Assembly: GCA_026419785.1 (NCBI GenBank)
Contig: JAODTK010005745.1
Coordinates: 1-64,000, forward strand
DNA from: Sclerodactyla briareus
Taxonomy: Eukaryota > Echinodermata > Holothuroidea > Dendrochirotida > Sclerodactylidae
Direction: 5' to 3'
DNA length: 64,000 nucleotides
The translations under genes and the position numbers were made by a program. Of the stretch, positions 1 to 59,966 are shown one piece after another. The notes below the pieces were generated by a model that did no database searches, was not told the DNA's origin, and saw only the letters and a list, made by a program, of their open reading frames with translations. How positions within the stretch are numbered: the first letter of the stretch is position 1; each line of letters begins with the position of its first letter.

Positions 1-775
1 TCACCAGGCTTGCCACACAGGGGTTTACCTTGAGGGTGTTGTTTTACAAGAGTAGGGGAGAACGGTGAAAAGTATAATGTTTTTAATGTGCCTATCAGTT
101 ACTGCACCATTCACCTCAGCTCTTGTATTGCTAAGAACAAGGTTTTAGGTAGCAATACATTACCGTCGCAAAACCTAGCGACAAAACAACCAAAAAGCAC
201 AGAGGCCTTAGCGATTCTTGACTGCCTTGAAGTTCATTGACCTCAGATTACCTTTGATATGACCCCAAAACATAGGGATCATGTATTCACTATGGGGCAC
301 CAACTACCAAGTATGACCTTGGATGCCACCAACTCACCAGGTGGGGTTCGAGTATGGGTTAACGGCCAGGCGTCACACAAAACCCACACAAATGTCAGAC
401 TGCATAGATTCCTCGACAGTCACGGAATAAAAAATAATTTTGGTTGTGATTTCTGTCAGATGAAGGTAGCGGTTACGACTAACAGTGTCGGTTGGGTAAT
501 TTGAAGATCATACAACTAGTGTTTAAATAATTTTTTGAATACAGAATTGACAGCATTCAGCATTTGATGACGCATGATTAGGCCTAGGACTCTGCAAAGT
601 CCCCGCAAGAATAAAGGTCTATTAAATTAATGAATTACTGTCCACGATCACGCAGTCCAGACCATCCTTTTGTATATTAGAGTCCAGATTTAGGAACAGT
701 TTAGCACACCTCGATCTCCTACTACGCATACAAAGGACGATCACCTTTCATCATCAGGTACTACCACCCCCTACC
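1..775. other. Non-coding; contains a family 1 repeat fragment at 180-350
   Basis: No supportable exon is visible. Positions 180-350 read on the minus strand match the end of the family 1 repeat: a 'catacttgg' core and 'cactaagcc'-like end. The rest is AT-rich unique-looking DNA. Confidence 0.5.
180..350 (-). repeat. Family 1 (308-bp unit) repeat fragment, reverse orientation
   Basis: Reverse-complemented, this stretch contains the family 1 phrases for 'cat acttggtag', 'cccat...gtacatg.cccta' and 'ggggtca', followed by the family right end (GTCAAGAATC.CTAAGGCC). It is a truncated copy with the terminal hairpin degraded. It is the only minus-strand family 1 copy noticed in the window. Confidence 0.5.
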
Positions 776-10579: not shown

Positions 10580-11105
10580 TTGAGGAGTCAATGAATGCTA
10601 TCCAATAAACTAACATTCTCTTTGTTCTATATTGTTCTTCATATCATCTCTATCTAGACACCCTATGAATGATATCCAATAAACAACATTCGTCTGGTTC
10701 TCTATTGTTCTTCAATTTGGTCACTGCTCCTATCTAGAAACCCTAATGAATGCTATCCAATAAACTAACATCTCTTTGTTCTCTATTGTTCTTCATGTCA
10801 CGCTCCTATCTAGGCCCTAATGAATGCTATCCAATAAAAACATCTTTTTGTTCTAGATTGTTCTCCATAACAATGCTCAGATCTAGTATCCACCTAATGA
10901 ATGCCCTATCCAATAAACTAACATTCTCTTGTTCTCTATTGTTCTTCATGTCCACTGCTCCTATCTAGACACCTATGAATGATATCCAATAAACTAACAT
11001 TCTCTTTGTTCTCTATTGGTCTCATGTCAATGCTCCGATCTAGACACCTAATGAAGGCTATCCAATAAACTAACATTCTCTTTGTTCTTCTATGGTTCTG
11101 CACAT
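10580..11105 (+). repeat. 77-bp tandem array, seven copies
   Basis: 'atgaatgctatccaataaac' recurs at 10,591, 10,665, 10,746, 10,820, 10,897, 10,975 and 11,051, giving intervals of 74-81 bp. Between them lies 'taacattctctttgttct', 'attgttcttcatgtca' and 'gctcctatctagacacc'. The copies differ mainly by small indels. No open frame is maintained through the array. Confidence 0.9.
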
Positions 11106-28280: not shown

Positions 28281-28394
28281 GTGAGTTGCCATATCACTTA
28301 ATCTTTCTTTTGTCATTATTCATGCCACAATTCCACAGTTACAAAATAACTTTGCAATTCACATGTTCCCTTTTGTTTATTCCTTGCAAGTCCA

Positions 28395-28785
28395 GGCATC
28401 ATGCAGTCATGCCAGGCGTCTTTGTGTATGTGTGTATGTATGTGACGCCCAACTTGTACAGATTAACTCACCCCACTTGATGGGATGAAGCTCATACCTT
28501 GGTAGGTGTGTTCCCCAATGATGAGTTCATGGACCCTATTGTTTTTGGGTCATGTCAGAGGTATCGTGGTCATCCACAAGAGGTCCTAGTCTGAAAACCT
28601 TGAAAGTCTAGTGTGTAGCTTTCTTATCAAGAGGTACATGACCATATTCTTGGTTGGGAAAATGGGAAACTTGCAGACTTATGTTGGCCCATAATGGCTG
28701 GTAACAATCTCCCATTTGTCCTTGTGTCTGTCTTTAGGGTTGTCAGAAAGAGTCGAGGATCACTAGCCTTTTGGCTTTCCTGTTT
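28395..28785 (+). mobile_element. Family 1 element, single-unit copy
   Basis: The left end is a TG-rich tract 'tgtgtatgtgtgtatgtatg' followed by 'tgacgcccaacttgtac'. The body has 'gatgaagctcataccttggt', 'ccccaatgatgagttcatgg' and 'gtcatgtcagaggt'. The right end has 'aggatcactAGCCttttGGCTttcctgt' (stem at 28,765-28,776). One unit only, so it shows the ends without the array. Confidence 0.6.
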
Positions 28786-28799
28786 ATTCCTTGTACAGA

Positions 28800-30530
28800 A
28801 GTCGGGAATATATGCAGTCCTGCCAACGTTTTGTTTATGTGTGTGTGTTGTATGAAATATGTATATATGTGACGACCATCGCTTGTGAACACAATATCTC
28901 TACCCCACCTAGATGGTCAAGCGCAACTGATATTTGGGTTCTCTGTAATGAGGACAAGAACCCTTTGGTTTTGGGGTCCGGTCAAAGGTCATCTGAGGTC
29001 AACATAGGACAAAGTCCTAAAATCCATGTGAAAGGATAAATCCAGAATGCTGCTCGGATCAAGGTTAATTGGGTGAGCCAGCTTCCTTATGGGAAGTATG
29101 AGACACTCCATTATTTTTGATTTAGTTTGGGGGTGGGTCATTCCTTGAAAAATGAGAGAATTGTGAAAAAACTGATATTTTTTTGGCAAAATTTTGGCTT
29201 GTAATCAACGATACATCAACCCCACGGGTGTGTGATCAGCTCACATTGGTATGTTGGGGGGTTCCTCACAATGAGTAATAAACTTATATCTTTGGCTCGT
29301 TCAAAGTGACCTGAGTCAATAAAGTGTAAAGAAAAAATGACAAACCTTGTAATCATCAATGATCTAGAAATGCTTGTCCCATTCTGGCTGTGAAATTTGG
29401 CATGTAGCTTCCTTAAGGACAGACAGAACTTCGATGTCTTTGGTGTGGTTAGGGGGGGCAACAAAGTGGAATTGTGGAAAATCAGAATAATTTGCCAATT
29501 TTGGTTTGTGATCACAAAAACCTGAGCCCCTTTCGTGGGAGACAACTATACTTGGTTGCAATTGCTATAATGGAGTACACAATCCGATTGTTTTTGGGGT
29601 CAGGTTAAAGGTCATCTACGTTATCGAAATCGAAGTGGGAGACCTTGTGATCCATGAACTTCAAAATGAGGGTCCAATTAGGCTGGAGTTAGTTTCGTGA
29701 AATGGGTCAGGAAAGACAAAATCTCATGAAAGACCCTGATGTTGCTACATCCCAAAAGGAAGAAATTAACCCAGCATGATTAAAGAATTTGCCCACAATC
29801 TGAAAAATTATATCATATATATATATTCTTGAATGCATTCAAACCTTAGACATGAACAACATCTCAGGCAGACTCATTAAGAGGCAAAGTCCCAGCCAAA
29901 TCAGAATACCTTGTTCCAGGTTCATAGCATGGTTGGGGGAAGAATGGCTTCCTCAATTTAATCGGAATTTGTGATTTTGGCCGAATGGCAACCTTTTGAT
30001 GATGTCATATCTAACAATTATAAAAAAAAAAGTTAAGACATTTCTTAGCGTTTCTAAAATTGTAGATATGACGTCATCAAAATGTTGCCAATTTGCCAAA
30101 ATTGCCAACTTAGCAGTGATAAATTATAATCTTTAAAAATTCGTAACTTATAAACCGAAATGCTATGAACATGAAAAACAGAGTGTTTGACTGGCATGAT
30201 TTTCAATGCACAATCATATGACATTTAAATATTTTGGCTGGACTTGCCCTTTAAGAAATTCTTAAGTCTTAAGTACAATTAAGCGATGTTAAGGCAGTTG
30301 GGCGGTTATTTTGGTGGTGAATGGGAAATTGTGGAGAAAAAAATTGATATTTGGCAAACTGGTGAGCATGATAATTGGATTCTACATGGATCAAGCTCCA
30401 CGCAGTATGGTGGCTCTCTATAACGAGTATTTGGTCCCAATTATTCTGGATCATGCAAAGGTCATCTGAGGACATGAAACCTAAGGCATCACAAAGCCTC
30501 TGGAATTTCGGTCAAAAATTCATTCTGTTA
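28800..30530 (+). mobile_element. Family 1 element, diverged array interrupted by a MITE
   Basis: A second left end (TG tract 28,838-28,852, then 'gtgacgaccatcgcttgtgaacac') begins a diverged array. Core units are near 28,905, 29,219, 29,522 and 30,370 ('gatcaagctcc...tatggtggctc'), giving spacing near 300 bp once the MITE at 29,877-30,254 is removed. The right terminus was not found. Confidence 0.55.
29877..30254 (+). mobile_element. TTAA-flanked palindromic MITE (copy 2, best ends)
   Basis: TTAA-GAGGCAAAGTCCCAGCC at the left mirrors GGCTGGACTTGCCCT-TTAA at the right. Inside, 'gatgatgtcatatcta' (about 29,999) and 'tagatatgacgtcatca' (about 30,064) form a further inverted pair. Length 378 bp. 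It lies inside the diverged family 1 array, so it inserted later than that array formed. Confidence 0.8.
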
Positions 30531-33149: not shown

Positions 33150-35653
33150 TTGTTTTGATTCCTTGACGAAGTCAGCGGAATCTATCAGTCACGTCGTGTG
33201 TGTTGTGTGTGTGTGTGTGTGTGTAAATGTGTGTGTGACGCCCATCTTGTAAACACGATGAAACTTTGATCAGGTCTGGGTAGGTCCGGCTCATACTTGG
33301 TATGTGTGTTCCCCCATGATCAGCCTGAACCCTACCCATCGATTTGGGTGTCAGTAGAGGGTCATCTGAGGTCACCAGAGGTCACGTCTGAACAACCTTG
33401 AAACACGATAAGTCCTATTGGTGGATCTTATCATTTAATTAGGTGTATCTTTCGTATGGGGAGTACAGAACCCTAATGTTTTCGGTTCAGGACGGGAGTG
33501 ATTTTTGTCGAAAAATAGAAAATTTGTGAAATTTTGATATTTTGCCACTTTTGGGCTTTGTAAATACACGATACTCGACTCACCCCACCCGGATGGATGA
33601 GCTAGCTCATACTTGGATGTGTGTCCCCATGAATTAGTTCATGGACCCTATTGATTTGGGTGTCAGGTTCAAGGTCATCTGAGGTCACCAAGGACAAAGT
33701 CTGAAAAGCCTTGTAAACACGATGACTCCCAGAATGGTTGGTCTGATCAAGTTGAATTAATGTGTAGCTTTCTTATGGGGAGTACAGGAACCCTATTGTT
33801 TTTTGTTGCTGTGGGGTTAATTTTTGTCGAAATAAGGAAATTTGTGAAAATTTGATATTTTGGCAAATTTTTTGGCTTGTAAACACGATAACGTCGACCC
33901 CACTAGATGGATGATCTCATACTTCGTATGTGTGGTTCCCCCTGTAGTCCTGAACCCTATTAGTTTTTGGGGTCGGTCAGAGTCTCTGAGGTCACAAGGT
34001 CCAAGTCTGAAACCTTTGTAAACACAATTAGTCCGAAAGGTTGGTGTGAGCAAGTTAAAATTAGGTGTATAAGCTTTCTTCATGGGGAGTACAGAACCCT
34101 ATTGTTTTCGGTTCACCGGACGTGAGTGAATTTTGGTCGAAAATAAAAATTTGTGAAAATTTGATATTTTGGCCAATTTTTGCTTGTAAACGCGATAACT
34201 CGACCCCACCTGGATGGATGAAGCTCAGTACTTGGTATGTGTGGTCCCCATGATGAGGTCCTGCACCCTATTGATTTGGGGTCAGGTCAAGGTCATCTGT
34301 GGTCCCCCACAGAGGTCAAGTCTGAAACACCTGTAAACACGCTAAGTCCTATGGGTTGGTCTGAATCACGTTTAATATGTGAGTAGCTTTCTTAGTGGAG
34401 TACCAGGAACCCTATTGTTTTTGGTTCAGTATGGTGATTGTGGTCGAAAATAGAAATTGGTGAAAATTCGATATTGGCAAATTTTGGCTTGTAAAACACG
34501 ATACGCGCCCCCCCTAGATGGCGGAAGCTCAGAAACAAAAAAAAAAAAAAAAAACCTTAGTATGTGTTCCCCATGATATTACTGAACCCTATGTTTGGGA
34601 TCAGTCAGAGTTCTATCTGAGGGTCACCCGAAGTTCAAGTCTGAAAACCGTTAAACACGATAAGTCCAGAATGGTTGGTCTGATCAAGTTAAAATTAGGT
34701 GTCTAGCTTTCTTATGGGGAGTACAGAACCCTATTGTTTTTTGGTCAGGACGTGAGTTAATTTTGGCGAATAGAAACTTTGTGAAAATTTGATATTTTGG
34801 CCATTTTTGGCTTGTAAACACGATAACTCAAACCCCACCGGATGGTTGAAGCTCATTCTTGGTAGTTGTGTTCCCCATGATGAGTAACATGAACCCTATT
34901 GAATTTGGGTCAGGTCAGATGTCCCTCGTCAAAGTCCAGGGAAACCTTGTAACCGATAAGTCCAGAATGTTGGTGCTGACAGTTCAAATTAGGTGTATAG
35001 CTTTTTTATGGGGAGTACAGTACCCTATTGTTTTTTAGTTTCAGGGCCGGAGTGATTTGGTCGAAAATAGAAAATTTGTGAAAATTTGATATTTTGGCCA
35101 CTTTTCGCTTGACAACACCATAATCGACCCACCTTGATGGATGCAGCTCATACTTGGTATGTTTGTTCCCCATGATAGTACATGAACCCATTGATTTTGG
35201 GTCAGTGTCAGAGGTCTCTGCGTCACCAGAGGTCGAAGTCTGAAAACTTGTTAACACGAAAAGTTTCAGAACGGTTGGTCTGATCAGGTTGAAATTAGGT
35301 GTGTATCTCCGTTATTTGGAGTACATGTAGCCTATTGTTTTTTGGTAAATGGCGGGTGAATGAGGCTCATACTTTTTGTGTATTCCCTGATGAGGTAAAT
35401 GAACCCTATGTTTGGTCAGGTCGGAGGTATCTCAAGGTTACCAGAGTTCAAAGTCTGTGAAAAACCATTGAAATTAGTGTGTAGCTTCCTTACCAAGCGG
35501 TACAGGGAACCATATTAGTCTTGGATTGGTAAAGATAGAAATTTGTCAGACGTATGTTGCCTATAATGAACTGGTACTATCTCCCATTTTGCCGTGTGTC
35601 TGGCTATGGGTTGACAGAATGTCAAGGAATCACTAAGCCTTTTGGCTTCTGGT
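33150..35653 (+). mobile_element. Family 1 element, eight-unit array with hairpin-CTGG terminus
   Basis: The left end is a TG tract (33,194-33,240) followed by 'gtgacgcccatcttgtaaacacgat'. Cores 'gctcatacttggtatgtgtg' recur at about 33,291, 33,605, 33,915, 34,222, 34,525, 34,849, 35,145 and 35,362, mean period near 308 bp; each unit has a second half with 'agaaccctattgttttt' and 'gaaaatttgatattttgg'. The right end is CACT-AAGCC-TTTT-GGCTT (35,635-35,648) followed by CTGG and T. The units differ mostly by indels. There is no coding capacity. Confidence 0.7.
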
Positions 35654-36104
35654 TTATTTTCATACTAAGTCTCCAAGCAATTAGTCTACTTATCAACATC
35701 ATACTATATCTATAAGACTCCTTTCAAACCAGAATCATGCATCAAGTTCCGATGCCACCTCAGGAAATGCCATCACGGTAATATGCATTTGGATGAATTT
35801 GGTGGTCACACCCAGTTTTTGAGCCAAAAAAAGGCAGTTATTGGCAATGAAGTTTTAATTTGCTTGTGGAGTGGCATACACGCATAGTCATGCAATGCCC
35901 CCATTTTTGCTGTGAAATTCCTCTCTTGAGTCACCAATTCGGTTCATGTCTTTTCAGCAATGGAGAAGCTATATAAACAAAAAATTCAAAATGTGTGTTA
36001 GAGAGCATGAATGGAAACTTCCTCCACTTAATACGGGAAAGGGGACAAATTGTTTTGCTAATCACGCTGTTCGCTAAAATGTCTTCCCAACTGTTTTCTC
36101 ACAG

Positions 36105-43150: not shown

Positions 43151-43457
43151 GAGAAATGTAGGTCATTTCATATTTGACAGTGACTAATATTGATGACCAT
43201 CTCCAGAGTATTGGGGGTGCATCATGCGATTGACAACTGCATTAGAGCTATGTTTTTTTTCCCCTTGTTCAGTGAAGAATGCTTCGACAGGCACCAATAA
43301 GCACATCCTGCCAACCTTATTGGCACCACTCGCAAAGACGTCAGAGGAACTGCAGCTCAGCTGCCCCCTGGAGAGACGTGAGCTGTAGGTGTTTGAGGTG
43401 TTTCTCTGGCCTTGAAGGGTAACAATGAATGCCCTCAAAAAAAAAAACTAAAAAAAA

Positions 43458-43930
43458 CAGTCACCTACCTCAGTGTCTAATCTCCTCGCTGCAATCTTGT
43501 AAGTTAATTAGATACCTACAGTCACATGGAATGCCTGGTACAGTCACCTACTTCAGTGTCTAATCTCTTCGCTGCACTCTTGTAAGTCAATTAGATACCT
43601 ACAGCCACATGGAATGCGTCATACAGTCACCTACCTCAGTGTCTAATCTCCTCGCTGCAATCTTGTAAGTTAATTAGATACCTACAGCCACATGGAATGC
43701 CTGGTACAGTCACCTACTTCAGTGTCTAATCTCTTCGCTGCAATCTTGTAAGTTAATTAGATACCTACAGGTCACATGGAATGCGTCATACAGTCACCTA
43801 CCTCAGTGTCTAATCTCTTCGCTGCAATCTTGTAAGTTAATTAGATACCTACAGTCACATGGAATGCGTCATACAGTCACCTACCTCAGTGTCTAATCTC
43901 TTCGCTGCAATCTTGTAAGTTAGTTAGAAT
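43458..43930 (+). repeat. 83-bp tandem array with alternating variants
   Basis: Units start 'cagtcacctac' at 43,458, 43,541, 43,624, 43,707, 43,791 and 43,874 (spacing 83-84 bp). Each contains 'tgcaatcttgtaagttaatt' and 'agatacctaca.tcacatgg'. Units 1 and 3 end with 'atgcctggta', units 2, 4 and 5 with 'atgcgtcata', so the array is built partly of 166-bp dimers. Identity is very high and indels are few. Confidence 0.95.
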
Positions 43931-46490: not shown

Positions 46491-47200
46491 ATATCCCCGC
46501 AACACTGGAAGTGTCGGGGATATTATGGTTTTGGGTGTGTAGCTAGCCGCCGAACGTCCCAGGCTCCGCCGCCGCCGGAAACTTTAGGCGTTAGCGCAAT
46601 AACTCTTCAACGCTTCATCGATTGCTTAAACTTGGTACACATGTCCGCCCTAGTGAAATCTCGGATGAGTTCGAAAGTGGGCATCACTGCAATACTGGGG
46701 GCGGCTAAATTTGCATAATTATGTGAAATTTTCAAGTTAGTCGGATTTGGTGGGTAGGGACTATAGTTGATCCCGAAAATGTGGAGGTCATTTCAAGGTC
46801 ATAGGAAGTTCAAATTTGCGACATTTATGCGATTTTCCAAACTTTGTCAGATTTGAGCGAAACTTGGTGGGTAGGGACTATAGTTGATCCCGAAAATGTG
46901 GAGGTCATTTCAAGGTCATCGGAGGTCAAATTGCGACATTTATGCGATTTTCCAAACTTTGTCAGATTTGAACAAAACTTGGTGGATGGGAGTTACATTT
47001 GTTTCTCACTAAGTTAGAAGTTCATTCAAGCCATTGTGGGTCATTTTTCGCATAATTCATGTGCCTATTACTTCCAGGGATTACGACAAAAACTTGGTGG
47101 ATGAAGTTTATCTTGGTTTCTGACCAAAATGGGGGTCTTTATGGGGTGTTAGGAACTTCTTCCCATAAGATTGATCAAAAGCGGGGCTATACCGTGGGTG
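46491..47200 (+). mobile_element. Repeat with terminal hairpin and about 116-bp internal units
   Basis: It starts at a hairpin: ATATCCCCG (46,491) pairs with CGGGGATAT (46,515-46,523), with an inner ACACT/AGTGT stem. Then 'tgggtaggga' or its variant 'tggatggg'/'tggatgaa' recurs at 46,751, 46,868, 46,983 and 47,098, spacing 115-117 bp, each followed by 'ggaggtcatttcaaggtcat'-type sequence. The units resemble those inside family 3 ('aacttggtgga'). The right end was not determined. Confidence 0.6.
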
Positions 47201-51540: not shown

Positions 51541-51939
51541 AACATCTCCTCTTATATTTCTCATCTTCCTGTAATCATTAGGCTCTAATCTTCTTGTTTC
51601 ACAGATACACCCCCTACAAATGAAGGAAGAAGAAGAAGAAACTCTGATTGAGGCCATCTTGCAGTAACTGCTGTCATATGTCTGACTAAAAATGTCAAAA
51701 GCTGATAAGGCTGGCCATGGAAGCGGTAGGCAAACTAACTAATCCACACCAATTTCTTCGAAGTTTCAAAATGGAATGAGCAATGTTGTACTTGAGTTCT
51801 TTACATGATTTTTTTTTTGTTGTGTATATTGTGAAGAGACCTTACCATGAGAGAATCGTGGTCCAGTTGACTCTTAGCAGAACAGTTTGTGTGTGATTAT
51901 GATTGCGGAACTCAGCAATTCCTGTATGGAATCTGAAAG

Positions 51940-52853
51940 TCAAGCAAGAATCTGTGTGTGACGCCAGCTTGTAAACACGAATATCAAACCCCACCTGGAT
52001 GGATGAAGCTCATACTTGTATGTGTGTTCCCCATGATGAGTACTGAACCCTATTGTTTTTTGGTCAAGTCCAAGGTCATTGAGGTCACCAGAGTGAAAGT
52101 CTGGAAACCTTGTAACCAAGTCCACAGTGGTGGGGCTGATCAGGTCAAATTGGTGTGTACTTTCTTATGGGAAGTACAGAACCCTATTGTTTAGTTTAGT
52201 TGGGGTGAATTTGGTCAAAAATGGAAAATTGTGAAAGTTTGATATTATGGCCAATTTTGGCTTAAACACGGTACCATCGACCCCCACATACTTGGTCTGT
52301 GGTTTCCCCATAATGGTAACATGCACCCTATTATTTTGGGTCAGTCAAAGGCTCTGAGGTCAACAAGGTGAAAGTCCGAAATGCTTGTAAACACGATAAG
52401 TCCAAATGGTTGGTCTGATCAGGTTGAATTTGGTGTTTAGCATCCTTATGGGGACTACAGTAAACCAGAAAGCCAATGGCTCATTGATTACTTTACCATT
52501 TCTGACATCTATGGCCCAGACACAAGAGCAAATGGGATCAAGCTGCATCATTTTTTGTGGAGATGGGACATTGGTCAACGTGTCATAATGTACAATTTCC
52601 GATTAGTCCTGATGTCTGCCATAGTTGTAAGAAATGAGTCAAGGAATCACTGAGCTATTGGGTTTCTGTTTGTGAACAGGATGAAGGATAACTTGACCCA
52701 CGGGATGGATCAGCCATACTCATTCTCAATTCTCATATTGAGATCAACGTTTGGTATCTTATCTCGACTTTCCATAGTAGAAACACTTGTATACCTGAAT
52801 TTCTAGAATTCTGATGATCAGTCAAGAATCTCCCAGCCCTTTGGCTTTCTAGT
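51940..52853 (+). mobile_element. Family 1 element(s), two to three units with CTAG-type end
   Basis: The left end 'tgtgtgtgacgccagcttgtaaacacg' starts at about 51,950, with cores at 52,010 and 52,285 and half-units at 52,170 and 52,440. One degraded right end lies at 52,636-52,672. A clean one at 52,814-52,853 has AGCC-CTTT-GGCT (52,835-52,846), TT, then CTAG and T. The presence of two right ends suggests two elements or an internal deletion. Confidence 0.6.
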
Positions 52854-53938
52854 TTGGCACAGAGCATTATAAAGGGCCACTCTTGTTGTGTGTGCTGTGT
52901 AGAGCTAGCTGTACAGGGCTGGTGGTCATGCAATATGTACATCACATACAGTAGCTGATTCAAGTCGTAGAGTTTCCTAATTTCGCAGGAGGGATTTCCG
53001 GCAGGTTAATGCCATAGCTTTGTAGATGTTACTGGGATGTCGTGATGGAATAGACCAATTGTGGGCAAATATCGGCATTGTGATTTCTGTATCTATGATC
53101 CACAAATAGTTGTGTTGTTTGGTCGTTCCTCAGTTTGGCATACTCTTTGGTCCCACATATTGTTTAGGCTCAAACGGCACTGAACTAAAGGCAAAAGAGT
53201 GTGTGCAGACCCACCCCCAAACATATAAGACACTACACTAACACAAATCGAAAGTTCTTCTAATTGTCTTCAAAGTTGTTTCAAACACTTGAGAATATAC
53301 CGAAAGGGAAAATAACCACTGGTCTCTGATAGCATATTTCAAATTCTCTACTGAGGGAGCATCGGTCCTTTACCACAAAATGTGGTAAATGTGGTTACCA
53401 GGAGTGCACCCAAGTGTTCCACAGTAACATGTTGTGTTCACCCATGAACTGGTTGAAACCAATCATGAAAACCCATGCCATGTCACCCCTGTAGTTGCAT
53501 ATGAACATTTCTCTTTTCGTATCATCTCGGAAATCCACGAATGTGATAGACGAAACCATACCCAGTGGTACATTGCTAGCAAGCACACAGAACCCATCAT
53601 GATAATGAAGACTAATAAAGGTATTCTGAGTTGTCACCCCCCCCCCCCCCCCAATCCGGGAGTAAGCGATGGGTCATATCCTCATAATGCCGTCGTCCTT
53701 TGGCCAATTCGCATTGTTCGCTCCTGTGGAAAAAACCCTAAACTTGAGTTGAGTTGAATGGGAGCGACTTTGCCCAACTGAAGTCCCCCCATGCCAAGTT
53801 GACCCCTGAAACACTGGTTCGACTGTATCAAGATCTGTTCTCATGGCTGTACAAATATAATATATCCTCTAAGTGTTTTCAAGATGGATCAGAATAAATA
53901 GAGAAAAGTCATCATTTCATTTATTTGTTTGCCCCCAG
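52854..53938. other. Presumed intron, nothing recognised
   Basis: Only a C-run (53,637-53,652) was noted. Confidence 0.4.
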
Positions 53939-58935: not shown

Positions 58936-59114
58936 GTAACACAATAAGGCATTATTAAAAATTTGTTATTTAAGGAACAGAAAGCTGCCCCTGGAACAAG
59001 ACGAATCATTGGAGGGCCATTGTCCAATAGCAAGGGGGCTCGCACAATGGATTGAGTCATTGTTAGTCAGTTTTTTTTTCATTCTTTGACCAGAGGAGAG
59101 GAGTCGTAGGCTGC
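58936..59114. other. Presumed intron, nothing recognised
   Basis: Short spacer between the last firm exon and a family 1 copy. Confidence 0.35.
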
Positions 59115-59966
59115 GTTATGTGGGGTGTGTGCATGCATCTGTAACGCCTGGCTTGTAGGCCTAAACAGGATGTGACCCGCCTAAATGGGTGAAGCACATA
59201 CATGGTATGGGTGTCATGATCAGTACATGGTCCCTATGTTTTGGGTAGTCAGAGCTTTGATGTCAAAGAAACAGTCTGAAAACTTGTAAAAGGATAAGTC
59301 CAGGATGCCTGGTCCTATCAAGCTGAAAGTTGGCATGTACAATGTGTCTTTCTTTTTATCGGAAGTAGAAGACTCCTAATGTATTTGGTGCTGACCGGTG
59401 GGAGGGGAAGGGAGGGGGGGGGGGGGGAGAGCGAGTGAGGGAGGGAGAATTAGTAAAATGTTGAAAATGATATTTTGTCCATGTTGGTTCGTAACAAAAT
59501 AACGTGACTCAACCTAGATGGATCTAGCTCATACTTGGGGGTTGTGGATTCACCATAATAGTTATATCATGTTTTGGGGCCGGTCAAAGTCAAAAGGTCA
59601 TATGAGGGCATTAGCGACCAAGAGAAAACTTTGAACATGATAAGTCCAGAATTCCTGTTCTGATTCAAGCTGCAAATTTGGTATGCAGCTCCTAATGGTG
59701 GTTGCAACAACTTCAAATAGTTTTTGGTGTCGACCCCATTTGTTCTTTTTTGTAAAAAATGTGGAAAATGGGGAAAAACTCATATTTTGGCAAATTTCAG
59801 CTTGTTAAAAAGATAACTCCACCCACCCCACCTGATGGATTAAGCTCATACTTGGTAGTGGGTCTAATAATGAGTAAATTATCCCGTCATTAAGGGTCAG
59901 AACCCCCCCCCGTCAAAGGTCATCAAGCATTCAAGGAATACTAAGCCTTTTGGCGTTCTGGTGCGG
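59115..59966 (+). mobile_element. Family 1 element, two to three diverged units
   Basis: The left end 'gtggggtgtgtgcatgcatc' then 'tgtaacgcctggcttgtagg' is followed by cores near 59,190, 59,525 and 59,845 (spacing about 320-335 bp). Right end 'attcaaggaatacTAAGCCttttGGCgttctggt' near 59,930-59,961 keeps the hairpin with one mismatch and CTGG. A G-rich tract (59,399-59,452) interrupts the first unit. Confidence 0.6.

Follow-up and report, generated by a model that had tools for sequence, protein, structure and literature searches.

A Probable Helentron-Associated Element with a Dimeric Satellite-Like Array in the Sea Cucumber Sclerodactyla briareus

The element and its relatives in the window

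We examined a stretch of 64,000 nucleotides from Sclerodactyla briareus (assembly GCA_026419785.1, contig JAODTK010005745.1, positions 1 to 64,000 of the forward strand), hereafter the window, which contains a prominent tandem array. An earlier note, made from the letters of the window, had read this array as cargo of a mobile element with a Helitron-like 3′ end. Sequence, TRF, and profile mapping place the array, both of its boundaries, and three other copies in the window at the positions which that note gave. The element is composed of the following features.

33153..35655, + strand: whole element, a complete copy of about 2.5 kb, from the T-run to CTGG-TT (sequence; both ends aligned across copies)
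33153..33182, + strand: 5′ end, TTTT plus GATTCCTTGAC-GAA-GTCAGCGGAATC, comprising the 5′ subTIR and an internal inverted repeat (35-row alignment, motif counts)
33196..33237, + strand: TG microsatellite, then GTGACGCCC (TRF, sequence)
33246..33552, + strand: first A-B dimer, its A unit carrying the first-unit variant block (sequence, profile)
33559..35246, + strand: internal A and B half-units, alternating (nhmmer mapping)
35247..35532, + strand: truncated 3′ block, B(1-115)-A(30-143)-B(42-106) (nhmmer mapping)
35537..35652, + strand: unique 3′ module (E3) of about 120 bases, which holds GTCAAGGAATC, ACT, and AAGCC-TTTT-GGCTT (3′-end alignment, profile)
35621..35631, + strand: 3′ subTIR GTCAAGGAATC, inverted repeat of 33157-33167 (sequence, copy counts)
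35635..35654, + strand: 3′ palindrome AAGCC-TTTT-GGCTT, then CTGG-TT (sequence, 3′-end alignment)

Read from left to right, the element presents a T-run, GATTCCTTGAC with its inverted repeat, the TG microsatellite, the array, GTCAAGGAATC, AAGCC-TTTT-GGCTT, and CTGG-TT, and the two arms, GATTCCTTGAC at the 5′ side and GTCAAGGAATC at the 3′ side, are reverse complements of each other. TRF assigns the array a period of 307 and 6.6 copies (33289-35342). Profile mapping finds 8 A and 8 B half-units between the element ends, the last ones truncated, so that the earlier count of eight units was a fair one. The left boundary is real, but the "TG-rich" end proposed for it is not; the true left end is TTTT|GATTCC at 33153-33157, and GTGACGCC, which had been placed near this boundary, is present after the microsatellite. 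The right boundary was confirmed and can be refined to CTGG-TT at 35649-35654. Between 33153 and 35655, no stop-to-stop frame reaches 110 amino acids and the body consists of A/B repeats, indicating that the element has no coding capacity. An Rfam search of the window returned no match reaching the gathering score.

Other copies of the same family lie in the window.

28376..28785, + strand: short copy with one A unit, a B remnant, and E3 (sequence, profile)
28783..29721 (end approximate), + strand: an older copy in head-to-tail contact with the copy at 28376; right end not located
51916..52855, + strand: rearranged copy with terminus GGCTTT-CTAG-TT; left end approximate (sequence, profile)
59071..59962, + strand: copy with A/B units from which most of E3 is absent (sequence, profile)
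188..434, − strand: short copy with one A unit, both ends read by eye (A and partial E5 profile matches)

More decayed copies or pieces were recognized by eye and by profile from 9325 onward, at 54.2-54.4 kb (minus strand), and at 60.9-61.3 kb. The copy at 51.9 kb contains an inverted fragment of the 3′ module (52466-52537). The window also holds other repeats. At 46600-47100 lies one with a 117-base period, which by eye has an A-unit-like style (AATAACTC..., CTTGGTACACATG..., and GGTCA stretches) and may be a distant relative of the A unit. A 76-base unit repeated 6.6 times in tandem at 10590-11099 appears by eye to be unrelated to the family described here, and an 83-base tandem unit at 43457-43928 (93% matches) is more uniform than the array of our element.

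Shared ends, insertion sites, and element class

We searched the 319-Mb assembly (3171 contigs) for further copies of both ends. The 120-base 3′ end has at least 40 matches, itself included (the best 40 of 1716 candidates), the best other match having an E value of 1.6e-39; the 114-base 5′ end likewise has at least 40 (the best 40 of 1296 candidates; best other E value 3.3e-30). At these E values, the recurrence of the ends is more than chance. We aligned 45 3′ ends and 35 rows of 5′ ends, of which L009, L010, and L052 are one place. Beyond the left-hand T-run and the right-hand GGTT, the aligned copies are no longer similar. Our set of 35 complete copies consists of 32 from the 39 loci picked by their 3′ ends, L051 (the only one of 39 other 5′-end matches taken as a 5′-picked locus), L052, and the window element.

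These ends can be compared with those of HINEs (noncoding, Helentron-associated interspersed elements), the nonautonomous Helentrons whose plan is described in passages of PMC4067079 and whose layout is also given in part of the Results of PMC7492417. Several features that mark a HINE recur across the 35 complete copies. Complementarity between the 5′ and 3′ subTIRs exceeds the 95% shuffle level in 27 copies, with GTCAAGGAATC exact in 22 and GATTCCTTGA exact in 15. The 3′ palindrome GCCTTTTGGC is exact in 26 and exceeds the 95% shuffle level in 22. The 5′ inverted repeat is represented by GGAATC after the 5′ arm, exact in 18 copies, with one mismatch in 8 and two in 9, compared with no exact occurrence, 7 with one mismatch, and 28 with two or three in 35 random stretches; the 5′ hairpin rises above its shuffle score in only 8 of 35. 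A feature of canonical Helitrons is also present, in that the 3′ hairpin is followed by CTRR (CTGG in most aligned rows, CTAG at 52849). The earlier note had proposed a common 3′ boundary at the hairpin and CTRR, and the aligned copies share one. Their 5′ terminus is a T-run followed by GATTCC or close variants, with no TC.

The array is tied to these ends. All 41 3′ ends in the 39 3′-picked loci have a unit within 120 bp upstream, and the query that picked these loci lay entirely within the 3′ module. To check this independently of the ends, we drew 10 arrays from the listed unit matches, outside the lists of 3′- and 5′-end matches, and read approximately 1 kb beyond each. A 5′ end was present in 9 of the 10, a 3′ end in 8, and both in 7; in C2561 and C2026 the array reaches the edge of the stretch examined, and in C3137 the 5′ end is absent within 900 bases. 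These counts bear out the proposal that the array is an internal part of a mobile element with fixed ends. A different explanation would be a stand-alone satellite lying by chance beside repeated boundaries, with arrays spread via recombination or circles. Tandem arrays do reach 13 A units in complete copies, and internal units are mutually close in L014, L015, and part of L017. We did not find the pattern of arrays without ends, homogenized in place, that would define such a satellite. Instead, the array lies within the same ends in the same orientation, empty sites exist for whole elements (see below), and array length is unrelated to 3′-end divergence. The earlier statement that this is not a stand-alone satellite stands on the same grounds, and we regard the satellite explanation as extremely improbable.

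To locate empty sites, we joined the flanks of the 35 complete copies and searched 20 of the joins genome-wide, a set that excludes L036, L029, L016, L013, and a third set of 11. Empty sites were obtained for 5 of the 20 copies queried: L051, L014, and L024 (of 9) and L037 and L018 (of 11). Among the matches listed, those across the join number at least 20 places for L014, at least 19 for L018, at least 3 for L024, and at least 2 for L037, and the empty site of L051 is its own minisatellite. We read the junctions at 7 of the at least 20 places for L014, 3 for L024, 2 for L037, and 4 of the at least 19 for L018. Target duplications, which the earlier note had named as evidence for another mechanism, are absent beyond Ts at all five empty sites; the Ts themselves may be duplicated. 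Joined-flank matches of L029 and L023 involve the neighboring element, and those of L013 and L042 are repeats in their own loci (72-77%); all four were excluded as empty sites.

Insertion occurred in a T-run in L024, L037, and L018 (the last read by eye) and at a single T in L014 and L051. The preceding base is C in L051, G in L024 and L037, and A in L018; for L014 it is A where the site is filled and G at the paralogous empty sites. Of the 35 copies, 26 could be anchored, and their T-runs are preceded by G in 11 cases, C in 10, and A in 5. The A|T junctions that had been predicted are not borne out by these counts; of the five empty sites, L014 and L018 alone would permit them. By eye, L037 sits in a T-run within a B unit of an older related copy, a nested insertion, and its site is uninterrupted at C639 and C3087.

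We also searched this assembly in six frames for Rep and helicase sequences. The Rep profile PF14214 matches at two loci, C2413 (two pieces in two frames) and C2926. Motif 2 reads FVRIEFQQRGSPHAH at C2413 and FYRVEFQQ*GSPHIH, with a stop, at C2926, both with S between G and P, which is the Helentron state according to a passage of PMC4067079. Going by that motif rule, both broken Rep fragments are of Helentron type. The only PIF1 helicase match in the assembly has two stops. The earlier note had suggested searching for a Rep/helicase element with the same ends; none was found by six-frame profile search of the assembly or by seeking ends around the C2413 Rep, and the Rep and PIF1 matches are all broken. 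The C2413 Rep locus was considered as an autonomous parent and rejected, as its clear ends belong to a separate downstream copy and the Rep is split over two frames; apart from that inserted copy, end-like scores in the surroundings are weak (32 at 111.87 kb, 30 at 110.46 kb). The copy in question (C2413:104755-108033, L052 256-3534) lies approximately 1.1-1.2 kb downstream of the broken Helentron-type Rep on the same strand.

Could the element instead derive from a canonical Helitron (Helitron1), one that terminates in CTRR and uses A|T insertion sites? Canonical Helitrons, as a quoted paper passage describes them, have 5′ TC, 3′ CTRR, and A|T sites. The hairpin just upstream of CTGG (of CTAG in the copy at 51.9 kb), the T that follows, the lack of duplication beyond Ts, and the A before the T-run in L014 and L018 all agree with this origin. 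The 5′ end without TC, the G and C that precede the T-run in most anchored copies and the T or T-run in L051, L024, and L037, and Rep fragments with S rather than L between G and P do not, and sub-terminal inverted repeats at both ends are foreign to the canonical plan as far as the passages at hand describe it. We therefore consider a canonical origin very unlikely. The previous Helitron assignment holds for the wider Helitron world and fails for the canonical class, given the missing 5′ TC and the failed A|T rule. Overall, the subTIRs, 3′ palindrome, microsatellite, end-tied array, T-rich insertion, whole-dimer length variation, and distinct first unit lead us to assign the element, with a probability of roughly 90%, to the HINEs, with a satellite-like array as its core.

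Structure and history of the array

The 304-308 bp unit is a dimer of half A (about 142-145 bp) and half B (about 162-166 bp). Local alignment of A with B scores 66, and the highest-scoring of 1000 shuffles reaches 32; when the leading motif common to both halves is removed, the score is still 45 compared to 32. Judged from its sequence, the 308-bp unit is an old dimer. In 68 chains with neighboring half-units less than 40 bases apart, A is followed by B 282 times and B by A 245 times, with 5 B-to-B and 3 A-to-A steps. Complete copies contain 1 to 13 A units, and copy lengths differ almost always by whole dimers. The first-unit variant comprises eight positions in columns 18-39, found at 76-90% in 29 first units versus 2-15% in 166 others. 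At the other edge, 24 of the 35 complete copies have the truncated 3′ block, in which B runs to about 105-120 and A follows from about 27-52; it is absent in 11. The terminal B-A junction is duplicated inside the array in L024 and L051, a sign of duplication reaching into the truncated block.

We compared 195 full dimers with gaps ignored. Two dimers of one copy are on average 0.176 apart, and two from different copies 0.198; because sharing a copy makes units only slightly more alike, the arrays seem to have been built before or during transposition and then frozen. A unit has its closest counterpart within its own copy in 16% of 186 cases, versus 3% expected, indicating that some private amplification occurred. 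When the closest counterpart of a first unit is sought in other copies, it is a first unit as well in 83% of 29 cases (base rate 15%), a cross-copy link that last full units lack (10% of 39; base rate 20%). Within-copy distance averages 0.83 of twice the distance to the consensus. Both within-copy distance (rho 0.60) and distance to the consensus (rho 0.57; n = 26) rise with 3′-end divergence, as expected from independent decay.

Variation in array length could alternatively have arisen in place, with arrays lengthening after insertion by unequal exchange so that the element seeds satellites, as the earlier note had it. The span of 1 to 13 A units and the second terminal B-A junction within the arrays of L024 and L051 are compatible with such growth. 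So is L014, the copy whose units are nearest to the consensus, where internal units are 0.3-2.6% apart, the first unit is 11-13% off, and 5 columns are fixed for a nonconsensus state. Against it, array length is uncorrelated with 3′-end divergence (rho 0.07, n = 35), albeit over a narrow age range, as the 3′-picked loci are best matches, and first units retain their identity across copies. We further counted columns fixed for a nonconsensus state in the 26 copies with at least three internal units, for which the 95% level under the null lies at 0-2, depending on array size. There are none in 15 copies, one or two in 7, and four or five in 4 (5 each in L014 and L023, 4 each in L034 and L035). 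Growth in place is improbable in light of these data, and the claim of satellite seeding found no support. The simplest reading seems to be that arrays are made and homogenized in the mobile lineage, are carried in complete at each transposition, and thereafter decay one unit at a time. To account for L014 and a few others, some private amplification must be assumed as well, whether it preceded or followed insertion.

Some copies are joined. Among 58 3′ ends for which the downstream sequence was long enough, 4 (window 28.78 kb, L023, L029, and L085) run directly into a 5′ end of the same orientation, and TT alone separates the two elements in L023 and L085. A separate neighbor in opposite orientation was found at none of 58 3′ ends or 49 5′ ends; a weaker reverse match at L029 traces to the palindromic arm itself. 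These pairs might be products of rolling-circle read-through or of joined-end intermediates and not of separate insertions, and there is precedent in passages of PMC5148889, which report joined ends for FoHeli1 and tandem insertions for Helitrons. However, the L023 neighbors are no more alike (0.204 apart) than either is to the rest (0.213 and 0.189), and if a T-run were a hotspot at which orientation is random, four of four pairs would share their orientation with P = 0.06. We regard such an origin as a serious possibility, with the odds slightly against it. T-run length was discarded as evidence for joined ends, because the cases were too few and the anchor fails at TG.

Comparable elements and a possible life cycle

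Among the elements closest in description is Cg_HINE of Crassostrea gigas (PMC7492417). The passages describing it include a 5′ subTIR with inverted repeat and microsatellite, a 3′ subTIR with palindrome, a satellite-like array whose orientation is fixed, insertion at T-rich sites that leaves no target duplication, and no identified autonomous partner, all shared with our element. Compared by description rather than by sequence, the Cg_HINE unit is 138-181 bp, whereas ours is a 308-bp A-B dimer, and the distinct first unit and common truncated 3′ block present here set the two apart. A word search of the main text of PMC7492417 for "dimer" and "higher order" gave no match for either. HINE-Mo and DINE-1, in the portions of PMC4067079 that treat them, share subTIRs, the 3′ palindrome, the microsatellite, T strings at the boundaries, and TT or T-rich insertion. 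Tandem repeats are present in some of those elements, whereas here the array occurs in 39 of 39 3′-end loci, and a further difference is that an autonomous partner was not found in this assembly. Canonical Helitrons (Helitron1), so far as partial descriptions go, share the 3′ hairpin near CTRR, the T after the 3′ end, and the lack of target duplication, and differ in 5′ terminus, sub-terminal inverted repeats, target rule, and Rep signature.

Sea urchin Tsp elements reportedly have their source in Cohen et al. 1985. They are DINE-1-like with tandem repeats, according to a mention in PMC4067079, and we liken them to our element by description, not by sequence. In the literature searched, from which most subscription papers were missing, we found none that describes a dimeric unit in a HINE. 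Ours is a new HINE family with a dimeric, position-structured array, within a kind of element already known.

A possible life cycle can be outlined. A Helentron Rep-helicase from a putative autonomous partner would nick at the T-rich ends, and a single strand, starting at the 5′ hairpin and finishing at the 3′ palindrome, would be peeled off and then inserted at T. Whole A-B dimers would be gained or lost in the mobile lineage, by slippage or unequal exchange between near-identical internal units; the array would then be inherited whole, and after insertion its units would mutate mostly independently. We tentatively propose that satellite building is confined to the mobile phase, with whole 308-bp A-B dimers added or lost and the array frozen by insertion, a scheme that we think will more probably fail than hold. 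Equally tentative is the idea that, in this scheme, dimer gain and loss lie between a protected first unit and the truncated 3′ block.

If satellite building is indeed confined to the mobile phase, making and homogenizing arrays would be the work of the mobile element itself. Each chromosomal copy would then be a snapshot that bears a date and decays, and the head-to-tail pairs, as joined-end or concatemeric forms, would be by-products. The diagnostic first unit, common right block, and datable ends make the two halves of satellite life separable, and these copies can be used to test directly whether array growth accompanies transposition or happens in place. We suggest that arrays of the A-B unit in this genome be annotated as transposons rather than as satellites.
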